From Phycisphaera sp. (GTDB lineage: Bacteria > Planctomycetota > Phycisphaerae > Phycisphaerales > SM1A02): a stretch of DNA of 64,000 nucleotides. Below the pieces are notes generated by a model. The model ran no database searches. It saw only the letters and a program-made list of their open reading frames with translations, and had not been told where the DNA came from. The stretch is taken from contig WGMP01000014.1 in assembly GCA_016124975.1 (NCBI GenBank), positions 1 through 64,000 on the forward strand. Reading direction: 5' to 3'. The position numbers and the translations under genes were made by a program. Numbering within the stretch: the first letter of the stretch is position 1; each line of letters opens with the position of its first letter. This document shows positions 40,096 to 64,000 of this stretch, in pieces.

Positions 40096-40512
40096 GGCCG
40101 CCACTACCCCCTGCTGCGCAGGGGGATAGTGCCACACGGCACGCCAGCCTTCTCCAGCGTCGTCCGCTCCGACTTCGCTGCGCTCCGTCGTCGTCGGTGC
40201 GCAGCGTCGTCGCGCGCATGGCGTCGCCGAGTGCGGAGCGAAGCTCTCAAGTACCAGAGGGAGCCGCCGCAGTGGCGACCGCCCGAACTCGTGTGGCATC
40301 ACCTCTGGTGATGGCGGCAACGAGCGCACCGAACGCCTTCAGCCTGCAGGCTGGACGCACGCCCTTCGTGCGAGGCCGCCACTACCCCTGCTGCGCAGGG
40401 GATAGTGCCACACGATACGACTGGCGACTCCTGCGGCGGTCGCTCCGACTTCGCTGCGCTCCGTCGTCGTGGGCGCCCAAGTCGCGCCGAGCGCGGAGCG
40501 AAGCGCCTCAGC
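40096..40512. repeat. dispersed hairpin repeats, two direct copies plus a shared core (473-bp gene-free region)
   Basis: The gene-free region 40035-40507 is made of repeats. GGCCGCCACTACC, a C-rich hairpin and GATAGTGCCACAC occur at 40096-40137 and 40374-40413. The hairpin stem is CCCCCTGC/GCAGGGGG in the first and CCCCTGC/GCAGGGG in the second, one pair shorter on both arms. Each is followed by CGCTCCGACTTCGCTGCGCT (near 40165 and 40441) and a GAG(T/C)GCGGAGCGAAGC segment. Between them lies the palindromic core GCATCACCTCTGGTGATG at 40297-40314, and further hairpins at 40341-40354 (CAGCCTGCAGGCTG) and 40357-40373. The core block recurs inverted at 25640-25810. Confidence 0.85.
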
Positions 40513-41908
40513 TCCAGCTGGCGAGAAGCATCGTGAGATCGGTTCCGTCGACGACTCCGTCGCCGTCGATGTCCGTCGCGCACCCATCACACACACCCCA
40601 CGCGGCGAGGAGGATCGTGAGATCGCTCGCACCGACGACTCCGTCGCCGTCGAGGTCGGCGGGATTCGCCGCGGCCGTAAAAGTGGCACCGAGCGCGAGC
40701 GCCGCGCCTGCGCCGTCGCGCACGCGCACGGCGTCGATCGTGGCGGTTCCCGTCGTGGGCGCGGCCGAGGCGACGCGCACGGTGAACACAGCGCTCGCAC
40801 CCGCCGCGAGTTCCGCGCTCTCCGCGGGTTCGAACGACACGGCGAACGCGGCGCCCGCGGCGCGCGGCTTGATCGCAGTCGCATCGGGGCCGATGTTCGT
40901 GACGGTGAGCGTGGTCGCCAGTTCGGTGCCGGCCTCGCCCTTCAGCGATGCGCTTGCGAGCGACGCCGTCGTTCGTGCGTCGCGCGTGGCGACGGTGCCC
41001 GCGACCGCTGGGCCTGCGCCCCACACTGTGGCATAGTCGTTGGCGTCGCCGCGCAGGTGCGTGTCGAAGAACTCGAGGAGCAGCGCGCGCGTCTTCGCCA
41101 GCTGTTCCGCGCGCGAGATCGATCCCGAGTCGCACGCGATGATCGCATTGTCGATGAATCCGCAGTGCGAGCCGCCCGTGATCGAGACGAACTGCCGAGG
41201 CGCGTCGCACGCCGCGTACTGGTTCTGCGTGGTCGACGGCGCCACGATCGAGTCCTGCGAGCCGACGATGAAGCGCGCGGGGCGCTGCACATTGCCCGCA
41301 GCGGCCGCCGCAGACGGGTTTGTCTCGGCCGCCGCGAGCGTGGCCATGCACTTGACGCGCGCGTCGGCCGCCGCCGCGAGCGCCGCGGCGCCGCCTCCCA
41401 TCGAGTGGCCCGACACCGCGAACGCGTTCTGGTCGACGGCGTTCGCGAGCCAGCTCGACTTCGCCGCATCCTGCTGCTCGAGCCAGGTGAGGCAGTGGCG
41501 GATGTCGAGCGCGAAGTTCGCGTGGTTCGGGAAGAGTCCGCCCTCGCTCGTCGTCGCGATCACGATGTAGCCGTGGCTCGCGAGATGATCCATCGTCGAG
41601 TCGTAGAGATCGACCGCGCTGAGGAAGCCGTGGCCGAAGCTGATGGCGGGCGCAGGGCCCGCCGCCGATGCAAACGGCGCATTCGCGGCGGAGGATGTCG
41701 CGGGATAGCGGATCTGCGCCGAGAAGGTCGAGCCGCTTGGCCGCGACACCGTGACGGTGCGCTGCGAGACGGGGAATGGCCCGGGCTGCGAGTTGTCTGC
41801 GAAGGCGAGCGAGGCGCAGAGGCCCGCAGCACACGAGGAGAGGGCAAGGGCAGCGGCGAGGTACGGAGTGCGCGCGGCGGCTTCCCGGTCGAGTCGAGTG
41901 CGGCTCAT
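40508..41908 (-). CDS. secreted PETase/cutinase-like alpha/beta hydrolase with C-terminal dockerin
   Basis: A 466-residue exported hydrolase. The signal peptide (AAALALSSCAAGLCASLAFA) is followed by a catalytic domain (about 41-290) resembling polyesterase-lipase-cutinase enzymes. Visible are the opening QRTVTVSRPSGSTFSAQIRY, oxyanion region FGHGFLSA, nucleophile elbow GHSMGGG with Ser169, Asp219 in SQDSIVAPS and His248 in GGSHCGF, the same order and spacing style as PETase-type enzymes. A beta-sandwich linker (about 310-410) precedes a dockerin pair (ADLDGDGVVGASDL and TDIDGDGVVDGTDL) joined by CDGC. It probably cleaves esters of lipids or polyesters such as cutin outside the cell; the true substrate is unknown. 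No ribosome binding site is obvious for the ATG at 41908. Confidence 0.82.
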   Translation of the reverse strand: MSRTRLDREAAARTPYLAAALALSSCAAGLCASLAFADNSQPGPFPVSQRTVTVSRPSGSTFSAQIRYPATSSAANAPFASAAGPAPAISFGHGFLSAVDLYDSTMDHLASHGYIVIATTSEGGLFPNHANFALDIRHCLTWLEQQDAAKSSWLANAVDQNAFAVSGHSMGGGAAALAAAADARVKCMATLAAAETNPSAAAAAGNVQRPARFIVGSQDSIVAPSTTQNQYAACDAPRQFVSITGGSHCGFIDNAIIACDSGSISRAEQLAKTRALLLEFFDTHLRGDANDYATVWGAGPAVAGTVATRDARTTASLASASLKGEAGTELATTLTVTNIGPDATAIKPRAAGAAFAVSFEPAESAELAAGASAVFTVRVASAAPTTGTATIDAVRVRDGAGAALALGATFTAAANPADLDGDGVVGASDLTILLAAWGVCDGCATDIDGDGVVDGTDLTMLLASWS

Positions 41909-41976: not shown

Positions 41977-42012
41977 GTGGGCGGGGTCGACACATCGATC
42001 AACCCCGCCCAC
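41977..42012 (-). terminator. hairpin after a PEP-CTERM gene
   Basis: An 11-bp stem GTGGGCGGGGT / ACCCCGCCCAC with a 14-base loop lies 26 bases beyond the stop of the minus-strand gene ending at 42038. No U-tract follows. Confidence 0.55.
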
Positions 42013-57681: not shown

Positions 57682-59880
57682 TCAGCCTCTCGTCGGCGCC
57701 TTCACGCCCGCGATCTTGCGCAGCGCCTCGACCGCGGGGTCGACCTGCTCCTTGCCGCGCAGCGTGATGGTCTCCTTGCCTTCGAACGACGCGAGCAGCT
57801 GCTCGGCCCAGCGCTTCTTCGCGGGACGCGCCACCGTCTTCGCCCAGCCGTTGATCTCGGCCGCGAACCGTTGCGAGGCGCGGCGGTCCTTGCCGCGCTC
57901 GGGCGACGCGAGATAGGACGCGATCTCCGCCTGGCAGCGTGCCACGAATCCGTCGTCGCCGCCGACGCCGCGCCAGCAGCGCGCGAGGAGCTCGCCGTTC
58001 GTCGAGCCCTGCCGCTCGAGCGCCTCGAGCAGCCTCGCGTGCTCCTCGGGCGTCGCGGGCGCGGGCAGCGCGGCGACGCGTGCATGCGCGAGGTCGCGCA
58101 CGGTCGAGCGGTAGAGCGCGTGCTGCTTGTCATCGGTCGCCTTCGCGAACCTGTCCGCGCAGGCGTCGGCGATCGCAAGCGCGGACTTCGCGTCGGGCGC
58201 CGCGTCGAGCGCTGCGGTGATGGCCGCGAGGGCGAATGCACTCTCGGCGAGCGCCGCCTTCACGAACCCCACGCACTCGCGCGCACGGTCGTCGGGCGAG
58301 AGCGCGTTGAACGCGCGCACCATGGCGAGGCTCTCGACATACTCGGCGAACCCCGCGTTCACGCCCCACGCGACCGACTGGTGGAACACCATCGGCCTGC
58401 GGCCGCCCTTGTCGTCGTAGTTCCAGCCCGCGTGCACGGTGGTGACCTCGTCGCCGCCCGTCGCATACTGTCCGCCCTTGCAGCGGAACTCCTTCGCCTT
58501 CGCGTCGTACTCCATGAACACGATCGCGCAGTGGCCAGGCTGCCCCGCGGTCGACGCAGGCTGCCCCACGATGCGGTGCGTGCGCGCGCCGATGTTCCCC
58601 ATCGTGCCGCACACGCCGCCGTCCTTCCACATCATCTGGATCGAGCCGTAGCTGAACGCGATCGGCGCCACGCGCCGCGCGCTCTGCATGTCGAACTGCT
58701 GCGCGATGTCGCCGATGTACTCGCCGTAGGTGCGGAACTCGCCGTCGTCGCGGAACCGCGTCCAGATGTCCTCGCGCTCGCGTAGCGGCTGGTCGTCGGC
58801 CGCGAGCATCATGAGGACGGGCCACGGCGCGTTCAGCGGGAAGCGGGGCCACTCGCGCGCGGCGCGGACTTCATCGGGGAACCCGTGGCGGTCGTTGCGG
58901 ATGAACCACGCCATCGACTCGGCGGCGGTGGGGGCGCGGTCGCGCGCGGCGGGCATGCGGCCCTTTGCGCGATAGGCGCCGTGGAAGAGCTCGTGCGCGG
59001 CGGCGATCCGCTCGCGCAGCGACTTGTCCGAGACCGCGTCGGTGGAGCCCCAGTGGACGGCACGGTCGCCGCAGTCGATCTTCACATCGGGGTGGCCGTG
59101 CGCGGCCATGTGCTCGTTGAACTCCTGCTGAAGCGTGCGCGACGCGATCACATCGGCGGCGCGCAGCGGGCGCTTGACCATCTTCTTCACGCTGACGGCC
59201 GCGCGCTGCGGCTTCGCGATGCCGCGCTCGTCGTACTCGAGCGGCGGGAGCTCCTTCACCTCGACCTCTTCCTCGATCTCGGGATGGTCCTCGAGGAAGT
59301 TGACGATGTGGTCGTCGCGGTCGAGCGGGCGCGACGGGTCCTTGGTGTCGACGCGCACGCGCGGGTCGCCTGGAATCTCGAGCACGAGCGGCGCGCGGGG
59401 CGAGACATCGGGAAGCGTCTCGGGCGCGGTCGCGCCGTCTGCGTCGTTCCACGGCGTTCCCTGCTCGCCCCGCCTTGCATACGAGTCCTGCATCGCGAAC
59501 GCGAGCGCGAGCTGCGTGTAGTCGCGCCGCACCGTGTCCTCGCCGAGATCGATCTCGAGCGAGCGCAGCTTGAGGAGGACGGGCAGCGGGTCGGCGCGGC
59601 AGCCGTAGACGGTGGTGCGCACGATGGGCGTGCGGTCGACCCACGCGAGGAAATCCTTCGGAAGCGCGATGCCGCGCTCCTGCAACGCGTCGCGCGTGCG
59701 CGCCTCGGCTGCGTCGAGGTAGGCCTCGGTGCGGCTCGACCAGCTCGACTCGCTCGCGGCTGTCGCGACGGCCTCCGACGCCGCGGGCGCGGTCGTCCCG
59801 ATGATCGGAGCAAGAAGGGCGATGGCGAGGAGCGGAAGCCGAAGGACCGTGCGCATGCGCGGCATGGTATCGCAGCGCAT
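57682..59880 (-). CDS. exported transglutaminase-like (Cys-His) protein, unknown function
   Basis: A 732-residue exported protein with a signal peptide (TVLRLPLLAIALLAPIIGTT). The region QMMWKDGGVCGTMGNIGA followed by QPGHCAIVFMEY resembles transglutaminase-like cysteine hydrolase folds, with Cys424 as nucleophile and His450 as base. A third residue downstream is not identified with certainty. The N-terminal half has an unrecognised domain and a Pro/Glu-rich linker near 195-215; the C-terminal third is helical. Its ATG at 59880 overlaps the stop of the polyketide synthase gene (TGATG), so it is translationally coupled to that operon. Nearby ATGs at 59865 and 59856 are alternatives. Confidence 0.65.
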   Translation of the reverse strand: MRCDTMPRMRTVLRLPLLAIALLAPIIGTTAPAASEAVATAASESSWSSRTEAYLDAAEARTRDALQERGIALPKDFLAWVDRTPIVRTTVYGCRADPLPVLLKLRSLEIDLGEDTVRRDYTQLALAFAMQDSYARRGEQGTPWNDADGATAPETLPDVSPRAPLVLEIPGDPRVRVDTKDPSRPLDRDDHIVNFLEDHPEIEEEVEVKELPPLEYDERGIAKPQRAAVSVKKMVKRPLRAADVIASRTLQQEFNEHMAAHGHPDVKIDCGDRAVHWGSTDAVSDKSLRERIAAAHELFHGAYRAKGRMPAARDRAPTAAESMAWFIRNDRHGFPDEVRAAREWPRFPLNAPWPVLMMLAADDQPLREREDIWTRFRDDGEFRTYGEYIGDIAQQFDMQSARRVAPIAFSYGSIQMMWKDGGVCGTMGNIGARTHRIVGQPASTAGQPGHCAIVFMEYDAKAKEFRCKGGQYATGGDEVTTVHAGWNYDDKGGRRPMVFHQSVAWGVNAGFAEYVESLAMVRAFNALSPDDRARECVGFVKAALAESAFALAAITAALDAAPDAKSALAIADACADRFAKATDDKQHALYRSTVRDLAHARVAALPAPATPEEHARLLEALERQGSTNGELLARCWRGVGGDDGFVARCQAEIASYLASPERGKDRRASQRFAAEINGWAKTVARPAKKRWAEQLLASFEGKETITLRGKEQVDPAVEALRKIAGVKAPTRG

Positions 59881-60935
59881 CAGCGCACCAAGAGCATCTC
59901 GCCGACGAGCCCGGGGCCGAACGCGAGCCCGACCCATGGCCGCGGCGCGTCTTCACGCATGAGGCGTTCGAGGATGAAGAGGAGCGTCGCGCTCGACATG
60001 TTTCCGTGGTCGCGCAGGATGGCGCGGCTCGCGTCTCCTGCGGAGGCCGCGAGCCCGAGCGACTCGAGCACGGACTCGATCACGCGCGGGCCGCCTGGAT
60101 GGATCGCCCACGCGCCGATCTCGTCGACCCGGAGCCCGTGCGTCGCCAGCGCCGTGGCCGCCCACGCGCCGACCTCGCCGCGCAAGATGTCGGGAACGCG
60201 CGCGCCGAGGGTCATCTCGAAGCCGTGATCGCCGATCGTCCACGCCATCTCGTCCTCCGTGCCCGCGAGAAGAAGCGAATGCGTGGCGGCGAGGCGCGGC
60301 GCGTGCGCGCGCGATCGCGCCGTGCCATCGACGATCGCGGCGGCCGCGCCATCGCCGAAGAGGGTGTTCGCGATGAGGCGATCGATGCGCGCGTCGTGGT
60401 GGAAGTGCGCCGAGCACACCTCGGCGCAGCAGACGAGGACGCGCGCGGACGGGTCGGTCGCCGCCAGCGCCCGCGCGACGCCGAGCGCGTTCACGGCCGC
60501 GTGGCAGCCCATGAAGCCGATGTTGACGCGCGCCACCGCACGCGGAAGACCGAGCCGCTCGATCAGGTGCGCGTCGACCCCCGGCGACTCGAAGCCCGTG
60601 CACGACGCCGTCACGACATGGGTGATGGTCGCGGGCTCGGCTTCGCCATGCGCAAGCGCTGCGCGGCACGCGCGCTCGGCCATCGCGCGCGCGGCCTGCG
60701 ACCAGAGCCGCATGCGCGCGGCCGTGCCAGGCGCATCGCGGCCTGCGTAGAAGGGCGGCTCCGTCGCTGCGGCCGCGCCGCGCGAGTCGATCGCGCTTCG
60801 CTCGGCGAGGCGCGCAAGCAGCGCGCGGCTCGCCTCGGGCGGCGCGATCGCATCGGCGAACGCAAGCCACGCGTCGCGCGTCAGGCGCTCCTCGGGAGTC
60901 GCGGTGCCGATCGACCGGATCGAGGGGTCCGTCAC
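59880..60935 (-). CDS. type III polyketide synthase (chalcone-synthase-like)
   Basis: A 351-residue thiolase-fold enzyme with the complete type III PKS triad: Cys144 in GFMGCHAAVNALG, His279 in AIHPGGPRVI and Asn312 in HGNMSSAT. It would extend an acyl-CoA starter with malonyl-CoA and cyclise the product to a pyrone, resorcinol or phloroglucinol. The GTG start at 60935 overlaps the upstream stop (GTGA), a strong sign of coupling. With a methyltransferase and flavoprotein in the same operon the product is likely a methylated or oxidised phenolic lipid, as in srsABC-type clusters. The starter is unknown. Confidence 0.92.
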   Translation of the reverse strand: MTDPSIRSIGTATPEERLTRDAWLAFADAIAPPEASRALLARLAERSAIDSRGAAAATEPPFYAGRDAPGTAARMRLWSQAARAMAERACRAALAHGEAEPATITHVVTASCTGFESPGVDAHLIERLGLPRAVARVNIGFMGCHAAVNALGVARALAATDPSARVLVCCAEVCSAHFHHDARIDRLIANTLFGDGAAAAIVDGTARSRAHAPRLAATHSLLLAGTEDEMAWTIGDHGFEMTLGARVPDILRGEVGAWAATALATHGLRVDEIGAWAIHPGGPRVIESVLESLGLAASAGDASRAILRDHGNMSSATLLFILERLMREDAPRPWVGLAFGPGLVGEMLLVR

Positions 60936-62029
60936 GGGAGCACCGCCCCTTCGAGCCGCGCCGCGAGACGCTCGAACGGCCGCGGTGCGCGCGAACCGAT
61001 TGCGATCGCGGCGGCGACGAGCGCAGGGCTGCGGAGGATTCGCGCGATCGCACGGCAGCGCCACTTCGGCCGCGCCACGAGCGCCGCGTGGCGCGCGGCC
61101 CACGCGAGGTGCGCCTCCGCGTCGCGGGCGGCGAGTTCGCCCGCCGCGAGCCCCGTCGCGATCGCCCACGACATCCCCTCGCCCGTGAACGGCTCGACAT
61201 AGCCGGCCGCGTCGCCTGCGACGAGAATGCCCGGGGCCGCAAGTCGCGCGCGCACGCGGGTCAGCTGCGGCGTGCCGCGCCAGCGCGCGCGCGTGAACGC
61301 GTCGGCGTCGTGCGCCACCCCCGCGAGGAGCCCGCGCGCGCACGCCGCAACGCTTCCCGCGCTCCTGAGCGCCGCGGGCGCCACCGCGGCGGCGATGTCG
61401 ATCTCGCCCGAAGGAAGCCGCACCGCGCCGATGTATCCCTCGCGCGCGACATGCATGTGGACCTCGCCTCTGGGGCAATCGAGCGAGCCGCTCGGAAGAA
61501 GCGCGCCGAAGCCCATCATGCTTCGCGGCGCGATCCGCCAGTCGAAACCGGGCACGCCATCGAGCGCGCCGCCCTGCAGCCCGTCGGCGACGATGACTGT
61601 GCGCGCGTCGAGCGTCGACACGCGCTCGCCGCGCGTCAGCTGCACCGAGCGATCAGGCTCGATGCGTGCGGATGTCTCGAAGCGAACCTCGGCCCCCGCG
61701 CGCCGAGCCGCGTCGACGAGCCGCGCATCGAGATCCTCGCGCGCGATCGCGACGCCCGCCTCTCGCCGCAGCGTCATCGCGCGCACGCCGCTCACGACGC
61801 GGATCGCGCGCAGCGGCGTCGCGCCAGCGAGCGCATCGCCCGCGCCCGCCGCCGCAAGCGCCGCGATCCCCGACTCCGCGAGGCAGCAGCCGCAGACCTT
61901 CGCCCGCGGAAACGCGGCGCGCTCGACGAGCACCACGCGCGCCCCCGCGCGGGCCGCAGCGAGCGCGGCGCACGCGCCGGCAGGCCCGGCGCCGATCACG
62001 GCGACCTCGCAGCGTTCGCGCGCGGTCAT
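60932..62029 (-). CDS. FAD-dependent oxidoreductase (geranylgeranyl-reductase/hydroxylase-like)
   Basis: A 365-residue flavoprotein. The FAD-binding VIGAGPAGACAAL lies at residues 12-24, VCGCCLAESG matches the KxCGGGL block of geranylgeranyl reductase relatives, and GDAAGYVEPFTGEGMSWAI is the classic second FAD motif. It may reduce or hydroxylate the polyketide made by the adjacent synthase. Its ATG at 62029 overlaps the methyltransferase stop (ATGA) and its own stop overlaps the synthase start (GTGA). An in-frame ATG at 62053 is less likely. Confidence 0.88.
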   Translation of the reverse strand: MTARERCEVAVIGAGPAGACAALAAARAGARVVLVERAAFPRAKVCGCCLAESGIAALAAAGAGDALAGATPLRAIRVVSGVRAMTLRREAGVAIAREDLDARLVDAARRAGAEVRFETSARIEPDRSVQLTRGERVSTLDARTVIVADGLQGGALDGVPGFDWRIAPRSMMGFGALLPSGSLDCPRGEVHMHVAREGYIGAVRLPSGEIDIAAAVAPAALRSAGSVAACARGLLAGVAHDADAFTRARWRGTPQLTRVRARLAAPGILVAGDAAGYVEPFTGEGMSWAIATGLAAGELAARDAEAHLAWAARHAALVARPKWRCRAIARILRSPALVAAAIAIGSRAPRPFERLAARLEGAVLP

Positions 62030-62754
62030 GCGCGCCTCCACCAGAGCGTCCATCGCGCGGGCCAGGCCGCGCGCACTTCCACCCCATGAAGCCCTGCGTC
62101 GCGCGCGAGCGACGCGATCTCGGAACGCGTGAAGGCGGCGCGCACGCTCGCGGTGGCATCGTGATGCACGATCGGCGATCGGCTCAGCGCGCGCGAGCCG
62201 AGCCACGCAAGCAGGAGCCCGCCGCGCGTCCGGTCGAGGTCGGTGACGCCGACCGCGCGCGACGCCGCGGCCGCCATGTGGCCGAGCACGCGCGTCGCGT
62301 CGGCGGGGTCGCAATGGTGGAGGAAGAGCGAGCAGGTCGCGACATCGCCCTCGCAGGGAAGCGGCGCCGCGACGGCGTCGGCCTCGAGCGTCGTCGCCGC
62401 GACATCGGCCGCGCGCGCCGCCGCCGCCGCGATCTCAAGCGCATGTCCGCTGCGGTCGCACAGCACCCACTCGATGCGGAGCCCCTCGCGCCGCGCCCAC
62501 GCCGACATCGCGATCGGCGCGTCGCCCGCCCCCGTCGCGACATCGACCACGCGCAGCGCGCGTCCCGCTCGGTTCACCTCGCGCGCGTGCGCCGCGATTC
62601 CGCGCCAGAGCAGCCGATGGCTGCGCGACCACGCGTTGAGCCGCATGAGGCCCGCCAACGCACGGTCATGCGCGGCCCCGTCGAGCCCTGGGTCGTCCAT
62701 CAGCTCGGGAACTCGTCTTCGAATGCGCAGGTCGGTCGCGGCGGCGGTCGGCAC
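62026..62754 (-). CDS. class I SAM-dependent methyltransferase
   Basis: A 242-residue methyltransferase. Motif I is VVDVATGAGDAPI at about 69-81, and VTDLDRTRGGLLLAWLGSRA and the RSEIASLARDAGL element fit class I enzymes. The start VPELMDDPGLDGAAHDRALAG is characteristic of methyltransferases found beside bacterial type III PKS genes. I choose the GTG at 62754; a GTG at 62769 is possible. It is the first gene of the operon and probably O- or C-methylates the polyketide product. The 286 bases before it contain a small hairpin (62842-62860) and must hold the operon promoter, which I cannot pinpoint. Confidence 0.85.
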   Translation of the reverse strand: MPTAAATDLRIRRRVPELMDDPGLDGAAHDRALAGLMRLNAWSRSHRLLWRGIAAHAREVNRAGRALRVVDVATGAGDAPIAMSAWARREGLRIEWVLCDRSGHALEIAAAAARAADVAATTLEADAVAAPLPCEGDVATCSLFLHHCDPADATRVLGHMAAAASRAVGVTDLDRTRGGLLLAWLGSRALSRSPIVHHDATASVRAAFTRSEIASLARDAGLHGVEVRAAWPARWTLWWRRA

Positions 62755-63040
62755 GCGGGAGCGTAGCACCCAAGCCGCGCGCGCCCGCGGCCCACATCTA
62801 GGACCGTGCCGTCGGTCATGCCTGGGCCTTCGCGTGTCCGCACAGGCGTGTAGCGCCTGTCGCGGGCCCGTCCGCGGGCCCATCCACAAGCCTCGGAGGC
62901 CCGCACGCACCTGCGCGAAGCGGGTCGACCCAGGAAAATCGCCATGACCCCCGCGGTTCGACCAAGCAGTCGCGGCGCTTTTCCTGTCTTCGCTCGACGG
63001 GCCGTCTCGTTCGGCCGCGCTTCATCGAACGGAGCTCTTC

Positions 63041-64000
63041 ATGCAGTCGCAGATCGAATCCCCGCGTGGTCCTGGCCGTGTTACCCGTGCGCTGGCGGCG
63101 CCCGTTGCCGCGCTTGCCCTGCTCGCTTCTCCCCTGGCCGCGCTGGCGCAGTCCTCCTGCGATGCGGACCTCAACCGCGACGGCATCGTCTCTGGCGAGG
63201 ACCTGACCCAACTTCTCGTCAGCTGGGGGTCGTGCGCTGGTTGCAGCGCCGACATCGATGACGACGGCACCGTGAACGGCACCGACCTCGCGTCGCTCCT
63301 GATCCTCTGGGGCGAGAGCTGCGTGCTCGGCCCGAACATCACCTCGATCTCGCCCGCGAGCGGACCTCGGTGGGGCGGAACCGAGGTGATCGTCACGGGA
63401 AGCAATCTGAGCGGCGTGCAGTCGGTCACGCTTGGCGGCAACGCCGCGGTCGTGCTCTGGTGGACGGACAACCAAATCGGGCTGCTGACCGCCGCGGGCG
63501 AACCAGGGGTCGTCGACCTCACGGTCACCGCACCCTCCGGCTCGGCGACGGCCGACGGTGTCTTCACCTACACCGCGACCGAGGCGCCCTCGTGGGCCAC
63601 CGTGCTCGAGGAGACCCCCGATCCGAAGGTCGTCACCGATCCTGCGGTGCGCGCCGCGATCGAGTCGAGCGGCCTCCCGTGGCGCGTGCTCGCGGGCGCA
63701 GGTGGGCTCCAAGGCGAACCGATCGAGATGATCTTGATCCCAGGCGGCACCTTCGAGATGGGCTGCTCGCAGCCGCCGGCGCTCAAAGGCGCCGAATGCC
63801 CGGCCGATGCGCTCCCCGTCCACACCGTGACGCTGCGACCGTTCTACATGTCGCGCACCGAGATCACGCAGTCGCAGTGGACTTCGTACGGGTTCTCCAA
63901 CTTCTCGATCTTCAGCGGCCCCGGCTACCCCGATGCGGACAACCAGCCCGTCGAGAACATCATCCACGACGGCGCGACCAGCTTCGCGTCCTTCACGGGC
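63041..64000 (+). CDS. secreted dockerin-IPT-sulfatase-modifying-factor-like protein (3' end outside window)
   Basis: At least 320 residues, open to the window edge. A signal peptide (APVAALALLASPLAALA) is followed by an N-terminal dockerin pair at about 40-92 (ADLNRDGIVSGEDL and ADIDDDGTVNGTDL, joined by SCAGCS). An IPT/TIG beta-sandwich follows at about 98-178 (ITSISPASGPRWGGTEVIVT). From about 228 a formylglycine-generating-enzyme/SUMF1-type domain begins (MILIPGGTFEMG, HTVTLRPFYMSRTEITQSQW). In such proteins the FGE-like domain may be non-catalytic and sugar- or protein-binding; the active-site cysteines would lie beyond the edge. GGAG six bases before the ATG sets the start. Confidence 0.85.
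   Translation, partial: MQSQIESPRGPGRVTRALAAPVAALALLASPLAALAQSSCDADLNRDGIVSGEDLTQLLVSWGSCAGCSADIDDDGTVNGTDLASLLILWGESCVLGPNITSISPASGPRWGGTEVIVTGSNLSGVQSVTLGGNAAVVLWWTDNQIGLLTAAGEPGVVDLTVTAPSGSATADGVFTYTATEAPSWATVLEETPDPKVVTDPAVRAAIESSGLPWRVLAGAGGLQGEPIEMILIPGGTFEMGCSQPPALKGAECPADALPVHTVTLRPFYMSRTEITQSQWTSYGFSNFSIFSGPGYPDADNQPVENIIHDGATSFASFTG

Follow-up and report, generated by a model that had tools for sequence, protein, structure and literature searches.

A planctomycete serine hydrolase of the polyesterase-lipase-cutinase superfamily with a lineage-wide dockerin tag

PETases of types I and II are recognized by an aromatic pair in subsite I, Tyr/Phe87 with Trp185 (PMC5785972; PMC12442448), and the W185A substitution in IsPETase is reported to leave about 5% of the activity on BHET (Joo et al. 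2018, PMC5785972). Type II enzymes are further described by a GWSMG box (PMC12442448), and type III enzymes by a GHSQG box with Thr/Tyr in subsite I (Turak et al. 2025, PMC12442448; R75estA paper, PMC13396203) and by an insertion after the subsite I Tyr (PMC12442448; PMC13396203). HaloPETase1 is reported to degrade PET with Thr and Tyr in place of the classical clamp (PMC12442448). The M5 motif of PETases combines GGGG, [PG]-G-[YF], a Met after the catalytic Ser and DxDxR(Y)xxFxC (PMC12224614), and enzymes with motifs M1-M4, including some from Planctomycetota and Phycisphaerales, are described as unable to degrade PET by the authors' own assays (Alam et al. 2025, PMC12224614). The literature consulted on PETases or polyester hydrolases of Planctomycetota held no characterised planctomycete PETase, and a 2026 review presents planctomycete PETases as an overlooked possibility (PMC12976661). 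The 'planctosome', a cohesin/dockerin system, was put forward for freshwater planctomycetes in 2019 (PMC6461901). The literature consulted on PETase together with dockerin held engineered uses or reviews and no natural example of the fusion.

The window analyzed here is a stretch of 64,000 nucleotides from a draft genome of Phycisphaera sp. (contig WGMP01000014.1). It contains a hydrolase gene with the following features:

40508..41908, minus strand: whole gene, product of 466 aa made up of export leader, serine alpha/beta-hydrolase, Ig-like domain and dockerin
41795..41908, minus strand: putative Sec-type export leader, residues 1-38 (...LCASLAFA/DN), recognized by eye
41039..41788, minus strand: PF12740 (PETase-like) alpha/beta-hydrolase domain, residues 41-290, from Pfam and solved-structure alignments
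41402..41404, minus strand: Ser169, predicted nucleophile (GHSMGGG), in 58/58 planctomycete rows and aligned to the catalytic Ser of six solved polyesterases
41252..41254, minus strand: Asp219, predicted triad acid (QDSIVAPS), in 58/58 planctomycete rows
41165..41167, minus strand: His248, predicted triad base (GGSHCGF), in 58/58 planctomycete rows
41327..41329, minus strand: Ala194, aligned to the IsPETase Trp185 position; Ala in 34/35 and Leu in 1/35 clade rows
41132..41164, minus strand: Cys249 to Cys259, invariant in 35/35 clade rows, with Cys249 adjoining the catalytic His
40679..40990, minus strand: Ig-like beta-sandwich, residues about 307-410, from an all-beta model with block pLDDT 75-93 for residues 311-410
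40511..40663, minus strand: type I ('GC-type') dockerin, residues 416-466, with two calcium loops, from PF00404, NF041540 and a same-genome dockerin profile

Gene, neighborhood and superfamily

The reading frame opens with an ATG at 41908, the stop codon being counted within 40508-41908. An alternative ATG at 41995 would give a product of 495 aa, and the start at 41908 is preferred because it places the leader at the N-terminus. Orthologues with a readable start also carry a hydrophobic leader ahead of the hydrolase domain, and the esterase is apparently exported, going by the putative leader judged by eye. Between hydrolase and dockerin lies the Ig-like domain, probably a spacer, in which the Pfam protein scan gives a weak match to PF22544 (E 0.11). 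AlphaFold2 models from 6 and 7 sequences reached mean pLDDT values of 59.5 and 50.9, with low values around the triad and along the latter half of the catalytic domain. When the weak first model was searched with Foldseek, polyester hydrolases and cutinases topped the best 50 rows, with TM-scores to the model of 0.24-0.28.

Six of the nine neighboring genes scanned could be assigned: an AcrB-type pump, a Gfo/Idh/MocA oxidoreductase, a BNR/sialidase-like protein, YceI, a prolyl oligopeptidase and a 2-oxoadipate dioxygenase/decarboxylase-type protein. The three without a family lie before the BNR/sialidase-like gene (one) and after YceI (two). No terephthalate genes are recognizable among the nine (three of them without a family), and a PET-catabolism operon was rejected for want of such neighbors. 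The neighborhood is partly conserved in genus-mates: within flanks of at most 5 kb, 6/8 tested neighbors accompany the orthologue in L006, several do so in L007 and L009 and fewer in L008, and none of the eight was seen in L010 or L011. A promoter/terminator scan found nothing. Copies of a dispersed repeat of ~90 bases lie at 40114-40203 and 40391-40487 (83% identical, 13 genome matches), both between the hydrolase gene and the oxidoreductase gene. Elsewhere in the window, positions 59880-62910 (minus strand) hold, by eye, a cluster of type III polyketide synthase-like, FAD monooxygenase-like and methyltransferase-like proteins.

Among Pfam families, PF12740 (PETase) leads with 57.3 bits for the whole protein, followed by chlorophyllase (40.7), Abhydrolase_5 (39.6), PAF-AH (38.2) and DLH (23.1); the curated PF12740 cut-off of 28 bits is exceeded by the whole protein and by the domain alone (59.8). 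Thirteen family members scanned in the same way match PF12740 in 13/13 cases, chlorophyllase in 12/13 and PAF-AH in 11/13. PF12740 is nevertheless a loose label and weak evidence when taken alone; matches occur in 10/14 control genomes, above the cut-off in 4/14, and this genome has five, of which the one above the cut-off is this gene. In NCBIfam the sole match is sub-threshold, to the BHET hydrolase BdeA (33 bits, cut-off 520). The first phmmer matches among solved structures are GlacPETase (3e-13) and then 9k0h and 9hl5 (4e-13), whose printed sequences are identical and represent the type III enzyme HaloPETase1. A 13-row family profile retrieved 219 distinct PDB sequences at E <= 0.001 (best 1.7e-26), and nearly all of the best 60 of these 219 are named as PET, polyester or cutinase hydrolases, the remainder of the 60 as alpha/beta hydrolase, lipase, Ple629 or dienelactone hydrolase.

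As a yardstick, PF12740 scores for fragments of solved enzymes run from 329 bits for the engineered PETase 8d1d, which we take to be an IsPETase variant, through 234 for the CtPL variant 8ian and 122 for GlacPETase, down to 69 for 9k0h (HaloPETase1), next to 60 for the domain of this protein. HaloPETase1 thus scores just slightly higher, and distance alone is therefore no decisive argument against PET activity. The protein belongs to the polyesterase-lipase-cutinase (PF12740) superfamily as a distant relative of PETases. An identity as dienelactone hydrolase was rejected, DLH (23 bits) lying far behind PF12740. The earlier note, made from the sequence of this locus, had placed the enzyme closest to polyester hydrolases and named a clearly separated best profile match to a non-polyesterase family, such as dienelactone hydrolase, as an outcome that would speak against this; PF12740 and the solved polyester hydrolases lead instead, and the placement stands.

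Active site and clade

Published PETase markers were read from an alignment of 35 rows of the protein's clade (the window's own included, the frame-shifted L030 excluded), 23 other planctomycete homologues and six solved polyesterases. Ser, Asp and His fall on the catalytic triad of the solved polyesterases, as in PETases of types I and II, and are invariant in 35/35 clade rows and 23/23 other homologues. Met follows the catalytic Ser in 35/35 clade rows. Phe occupies the Tyr87 position in 34 of the 35 and Tyr in 1 (F95 in this protein), and the Ile208 position is Ile in 34 and Val in 1 (here Ile221). The Trp185 position, by comparison, is without an aromatic residue in 35/35 clade rows, where the six solved polyesterases read W/W/W/W/F/Y; a conserved x-T-x-P-S insertion follows Ala194, and no aromatic residue occurs within residues 186-210. 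The subsite I pair of types I and II is accordingly represented by F95, with Ala194 for Trp. At this same site the 23 other planctomycete homologues include Tyr in 6 cases and Trp in 1, and the loss of the aromatic is therefore a feature of the clade and not of the phylum.

Clade rows have HGF or HGY in place of [PG]G[YF] (HGF here), Ala (22) or Cys (13) as the fourth Gly of GGGG (GGGA here), and the protein has DANDYATVW in place of DxDxR(Y)xxFxC; the M5 PETase motif is thus represented by its Met, alongside the triad, with GGGG, [PG]-G-[YF] and DxDxR(Y)xxFxC absent. The C-terminal disulfide pair of types I and II is absent, no Cys lying between C259 and C440 of the dockerin. Absent too is the second disulfide of type II, C203-C239 in IsPETase numbering, with G216 and G250 at those positions in this protein and non-Cys residues in the clade rows. 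The nucleophile box is GHSMG, which is type I-like and not the GWSMG of type II, and with F95 and Ala194 the protein likewise departs from the GHSQG box and Thr/Tyr subsite of type III. Both [PG]G[YF] and the Met are also lacking in 9k0h, one of the six solved polyesterases. The His-Gly turn is invariant in 58/58 planctomycete rows, and such a turn is common in lipases and esterases. Cys249, Cys259 and, in the insertion after the Trp185 site, Thr196 and Pro198 are clade-wide in 35/35 rows, and the two cysteines could possibly form a clade-specific disulfide.

These results divide the earlier proposal of a PETase-like active site. The triad S169/D219/H248, its motif contexts and the GFLSA turn (residues 94-98) are all present and align with polyesterase triads (58/58 invariant). 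The aromatic clamp, which the note wished to see superposed on that of PETase, is there in part: F95 holds the Tyr87 position, and the Trp185 position has Ala194. A functional PETase is not supported by this active site, as half of the clamp is missing and the protein matches neither a published PETase type (I-III) nor the M5 motif.

Set beside PETases of types I, IIa and IIb (LCC, PE-H, IsPETase), the protein shares the superfamily, the triad, the Met after Ser and the Ile at the 208 position, and with type I the GHSMG box; it is unlike them in having Ala at the Trp185 site, HGF and not [PG]G[YF], GGGA and not GGGG, neither the C-terminal disulfide pair nor C203-C239, and an added Ig-like domain and dockerin. 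With type III PETases (HaloPETase1, PmC, dsPETase05, R75estA) it has in common remoteness from the PF12740 core (69 versus 60 bits), an incomplete classical clamp and an insertion after the Trp185 site, but its box is GHSMG and not GHSQG, F95/Ala194 stand in place of Thr/Tyr, and its cysteines are others. The M1-M4 'pseudo-PETases' (PMC12224614), compared here by description only, resemble it in superfamily, in partial PETase motifs and presumably in lineage, and our protein is likely the same kind of enzyme; dockerin and cohesin go unmentioned in the main text of that paper, whereas a dockerin is present here. The supposition that this lineage had no reported polyesterases was overtaken by the same paper, which in 2025 reported M1-M4 motif sequences from Planctomycetota and Phycisphaerales and called them unable to degrade PET (PMC12224614).

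In a midpoint-rooted tree of 64 rows, built with no outgroup, the six solved polyesterases form one group (96/84), separate from the protein's clade (93/84, just under the tool's star); L055, L056, L057, L073, 9k0h and GlacPETase have long branches, and their placement is unsure. Because the dockerin-less L010, L011 and L057 nest inside the clade, there may have been more than one loss or gain of the dockerin. The catalytic domain is matched at E <= 1e-10 in 46/181 genomes of the family and, in a second survey, in 61/392 genomes sampled from the phylum, this genome being included in both counts. Loci were fetched for 30 match rows from each survey, three of them shared, and the dockerin locus counts below cover those alone. 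The named relatives are planctomycete draft genomes, some with lake or pond in their titles (L006-L011); these six belong to the 12 loci of one search, the other six of which match just within residues 306-466. A scan of viral contigs and tblastn against plasmids returned no further relatives.

Dockerins and cohesins in the genus

The C-terminus carries two calcium-loop repeats, DLDGDGVVGASDL and DIDGDGVVDGTDL. The PF00404 score narrowly misses its cut-off of 22.9 in the protein scan (22.7 bits) and passes it in the genome scan (25.2 bits); NF041540 ('GC-type dockerin') gives 24.3 and 30.5 bits in two scans (cut-off 29), and a profile built from the genome's other dockerins recovers this one at E = 3.2e-19. 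Solved dockerins match weakly (best E 0.0096). The match is not chance, and the domain is a type I dockerin, where the earlier note had proposed a dockerin-like calcium domain. The note's further expectation, that the fusion would be unusual, is reversed: a dockerin is the rule in this lineage, occurring at 34/36 clade loci (L018-L053, counting that of the window). The idea that the fusion is peculiar to this enzyme was rejected on this count together with the 64 PF00404 and 71 NF041540 matches in the genome (overlapping sets, with several matches per protein possible). The 36 loci divide into 33 with an in-frame dockerin, L030 with the dockerin in another frame past a frameshift, and L021 and L023, whose contigs end first; in L042 the frame continues oddly after most of the dockerin, and the matches in L050 (1.5e-7) and L052 (7.6e-4) are weak. 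None of the 23 other loci (L010, L011, L054-L074) has a dockerin.

The dockerin is a general, mostly C-terminal tag of the lineage, borne by many unrelated proteins. Nearly all distinct two-loop dockerins (38/39) end at most 8 residues from the stop codon, the 39 being those visible by motif in 49 fetched loci, with the window's copy excluded and one-loop dockerins left out, including that of L128, which is not C-terminal; L119 and L132 have no motif. Among ten dockerin-locus proteins run against Pfam are a subtilase, an alpha-amylase, two FG-GAP proteins and an RCC1 protein; PF00404 was found at 1e-5 in nine of the ten, and five have no other family.

Other arrangements were also seen. Dockerins lie far from the C-terminus in L127 and L128, and at 63041-64000 (plus strand) of the window an N-terminal dockerin is followed by IPT-like and formylglycine-generating-enzyme-like regions (family names by eye). 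In other planctomycete families (L054-L074), many of these hydrolases end in a different module of ~120 aa (LYFQA...VP-like) where this lineage has the dockerin.

Cohesins are distributed differently. Pfam finds no PF00963 cohesin in this genome at E <= 1; across the 41 genomes searched, PF00963 occurs in 14, including 12/15 genus-mates, and dockerins in 40, and 17/27 cohesin-less genomes, this one included, have at least 20 dockerin matches. An eight-row model of full-length cohesin proteins gave three matches in this genome, all in the model's dockerin-like parts, and a cohesin-only model of seven rows was therefore built. This genus-trained model matches in 12/16 genomes of the genus, 1 to 13 times each. 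Its rows come from seven of the twelve, which therefore match by construction, and the other five are independent (G076, G080, G081, G084, G086). The model has no match in this genome (best E 0.3) or in G075, G079 and G085. Dockerin matches number 41-80 across all 16 genomes, and in the cohesin-less four they number 64 (this genome), 41, 69 and 46. These four are drafts, 97.59% complete in our case and 78, 93 and 82% in the others, and missing or poorly binned regions could explain the absence. Genus-mate cohesin proteins (L076-L084) have in common a terminal motif with one calcium loop, LRRMGxG...ADINxDGWVDTxDI...W, which reads as an adaptor-like half-dockerin, and the full-length model finds no full counterpart of such a protein in this genome. 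For most members of the genus, a cohesin scaffold is a plausible partner of the dockerin; no such scaffold, the mark of a cellulosome or planctosome, is detectable in this draft.

Readings of the enzyme and its tag

We read the protein, with a probability of roughly 0.7, as a serine carboxylesterase of the PF12740 superfamily that carries a lineage-wide dockerin attachment tag and belongs to a planctomycete clade separate from PETase types I-III; a general esterase or lipase so tagged is most likely. Following established superfamily chemistry, Ser169, His248 and Asp219 would form a charge relay that cleaves esters by way of an acyl-enzyme and its subsequent attack by water, and the backbone NH groups of F95 and M170 would supply the oxyanion hole. 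With one wall of the aromatic clamp absent, aliphatic or lipid-like substrates are favored over PET; PET activity appears unlikely, and acylglycerols, aliphatic polyesters and ester-decorated algal or detrital material would be likely substrates. Through the dockerin, many otherwise unrelated proteins may be tethered to a partner on the cell surface or within the extracellular matrix.

The same evidence can be turned toward a genuine polyesterase of a further non-canonical type. Such an enzyme would work at the cell surface on cutin and aliphatic polyesters, perhaps on PET as well, and the x-T-x-P-S loop and Cys249-Cys259 would take the place of the known clamp and disulfides. Polyester hydrolases are the best PDB sequence matches and, from the weak model, also the top Foldseek rows, and in this protein a Met follows the catalytic Ser and Ile221 holds the place of IsPETase Ile208. 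That type III PETases degrade PET without the classical clamp and with an insertion after the subsite I Tyr, and that 9k0h lacks [PG]G[YF] and the Met, is why we keep some room for this reading, which we consider unlikely given the non-aromatic Trp185 site throughout the clade, the separate grouping of solved polyesterases in the tree and the reported inability of M1-M4 enzymes, including those of Planctomycetota and Phycisphaerales, to degrade PET (PMC12224614). An esterase of chlorophyllase or PAF-acetylhydrolase type, acting on algal pigment or phospholipid esters, would account for the second and fourth Pfam matches (40.7 and 38.2 bits), recurrent in 12/13 and 11/13 members, and for the invariant His-Gly turn; PF12740 leads chlorophyllase by 17 bits, however, and chlorophyllase is the runner-up for the fragment of the proven PETase HaloPETase1 too, so that we hold this reading to be very improbable.

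The dockerin raises a separate question, whether the protein is a client of the 'planctosome', in which degradative enzymes would be assembled on the surface by cohesins. The Nemodlikiaceae planctosome (PMC6461901) is similar in its non-cellulosomal dockerins on degradative enzymes of freshwater planctomycetes, but its clients are described as Zn peptidases with a cohesin adaptor, and no cohesin is detectable in this genome. The published hypothesis, the PF00963 cohesins of 12/15 genus-mates and the genus-trained model's matches in 12/16 genomes (five independent) argue for such a complex; the failure of Pfam and of both cohesin models to find a cohesin here, and the 17/27 cohesin-less genomes that keep at least 20 dockerin matches, argue against it, and we put it tentatively at a little below even odds. 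A compound reading, in which the dockerin of the genus is a cohesin-independent attachment or sorting tag, acquired or ancestral, on dozens of proteins and the hydrolase a non-canonical type of polyesterase displayed by it, seems to us distinctly doubtful.

Under the preferred reading of a tagged general esterase or lipase, the enzyme is a caution against taking every PF12740 match for a plastic degrader, since the published markers fail across the whole clade. The dockerin system is the more useful lead, and the contrast of dockerins without cohesins is more surprising than the enzyme. With dockerins in all 16 genomes, cohesin model matches in 12 and none in four, the genus offers a natural comparison for the targets of non-cellulosomal dockerins.
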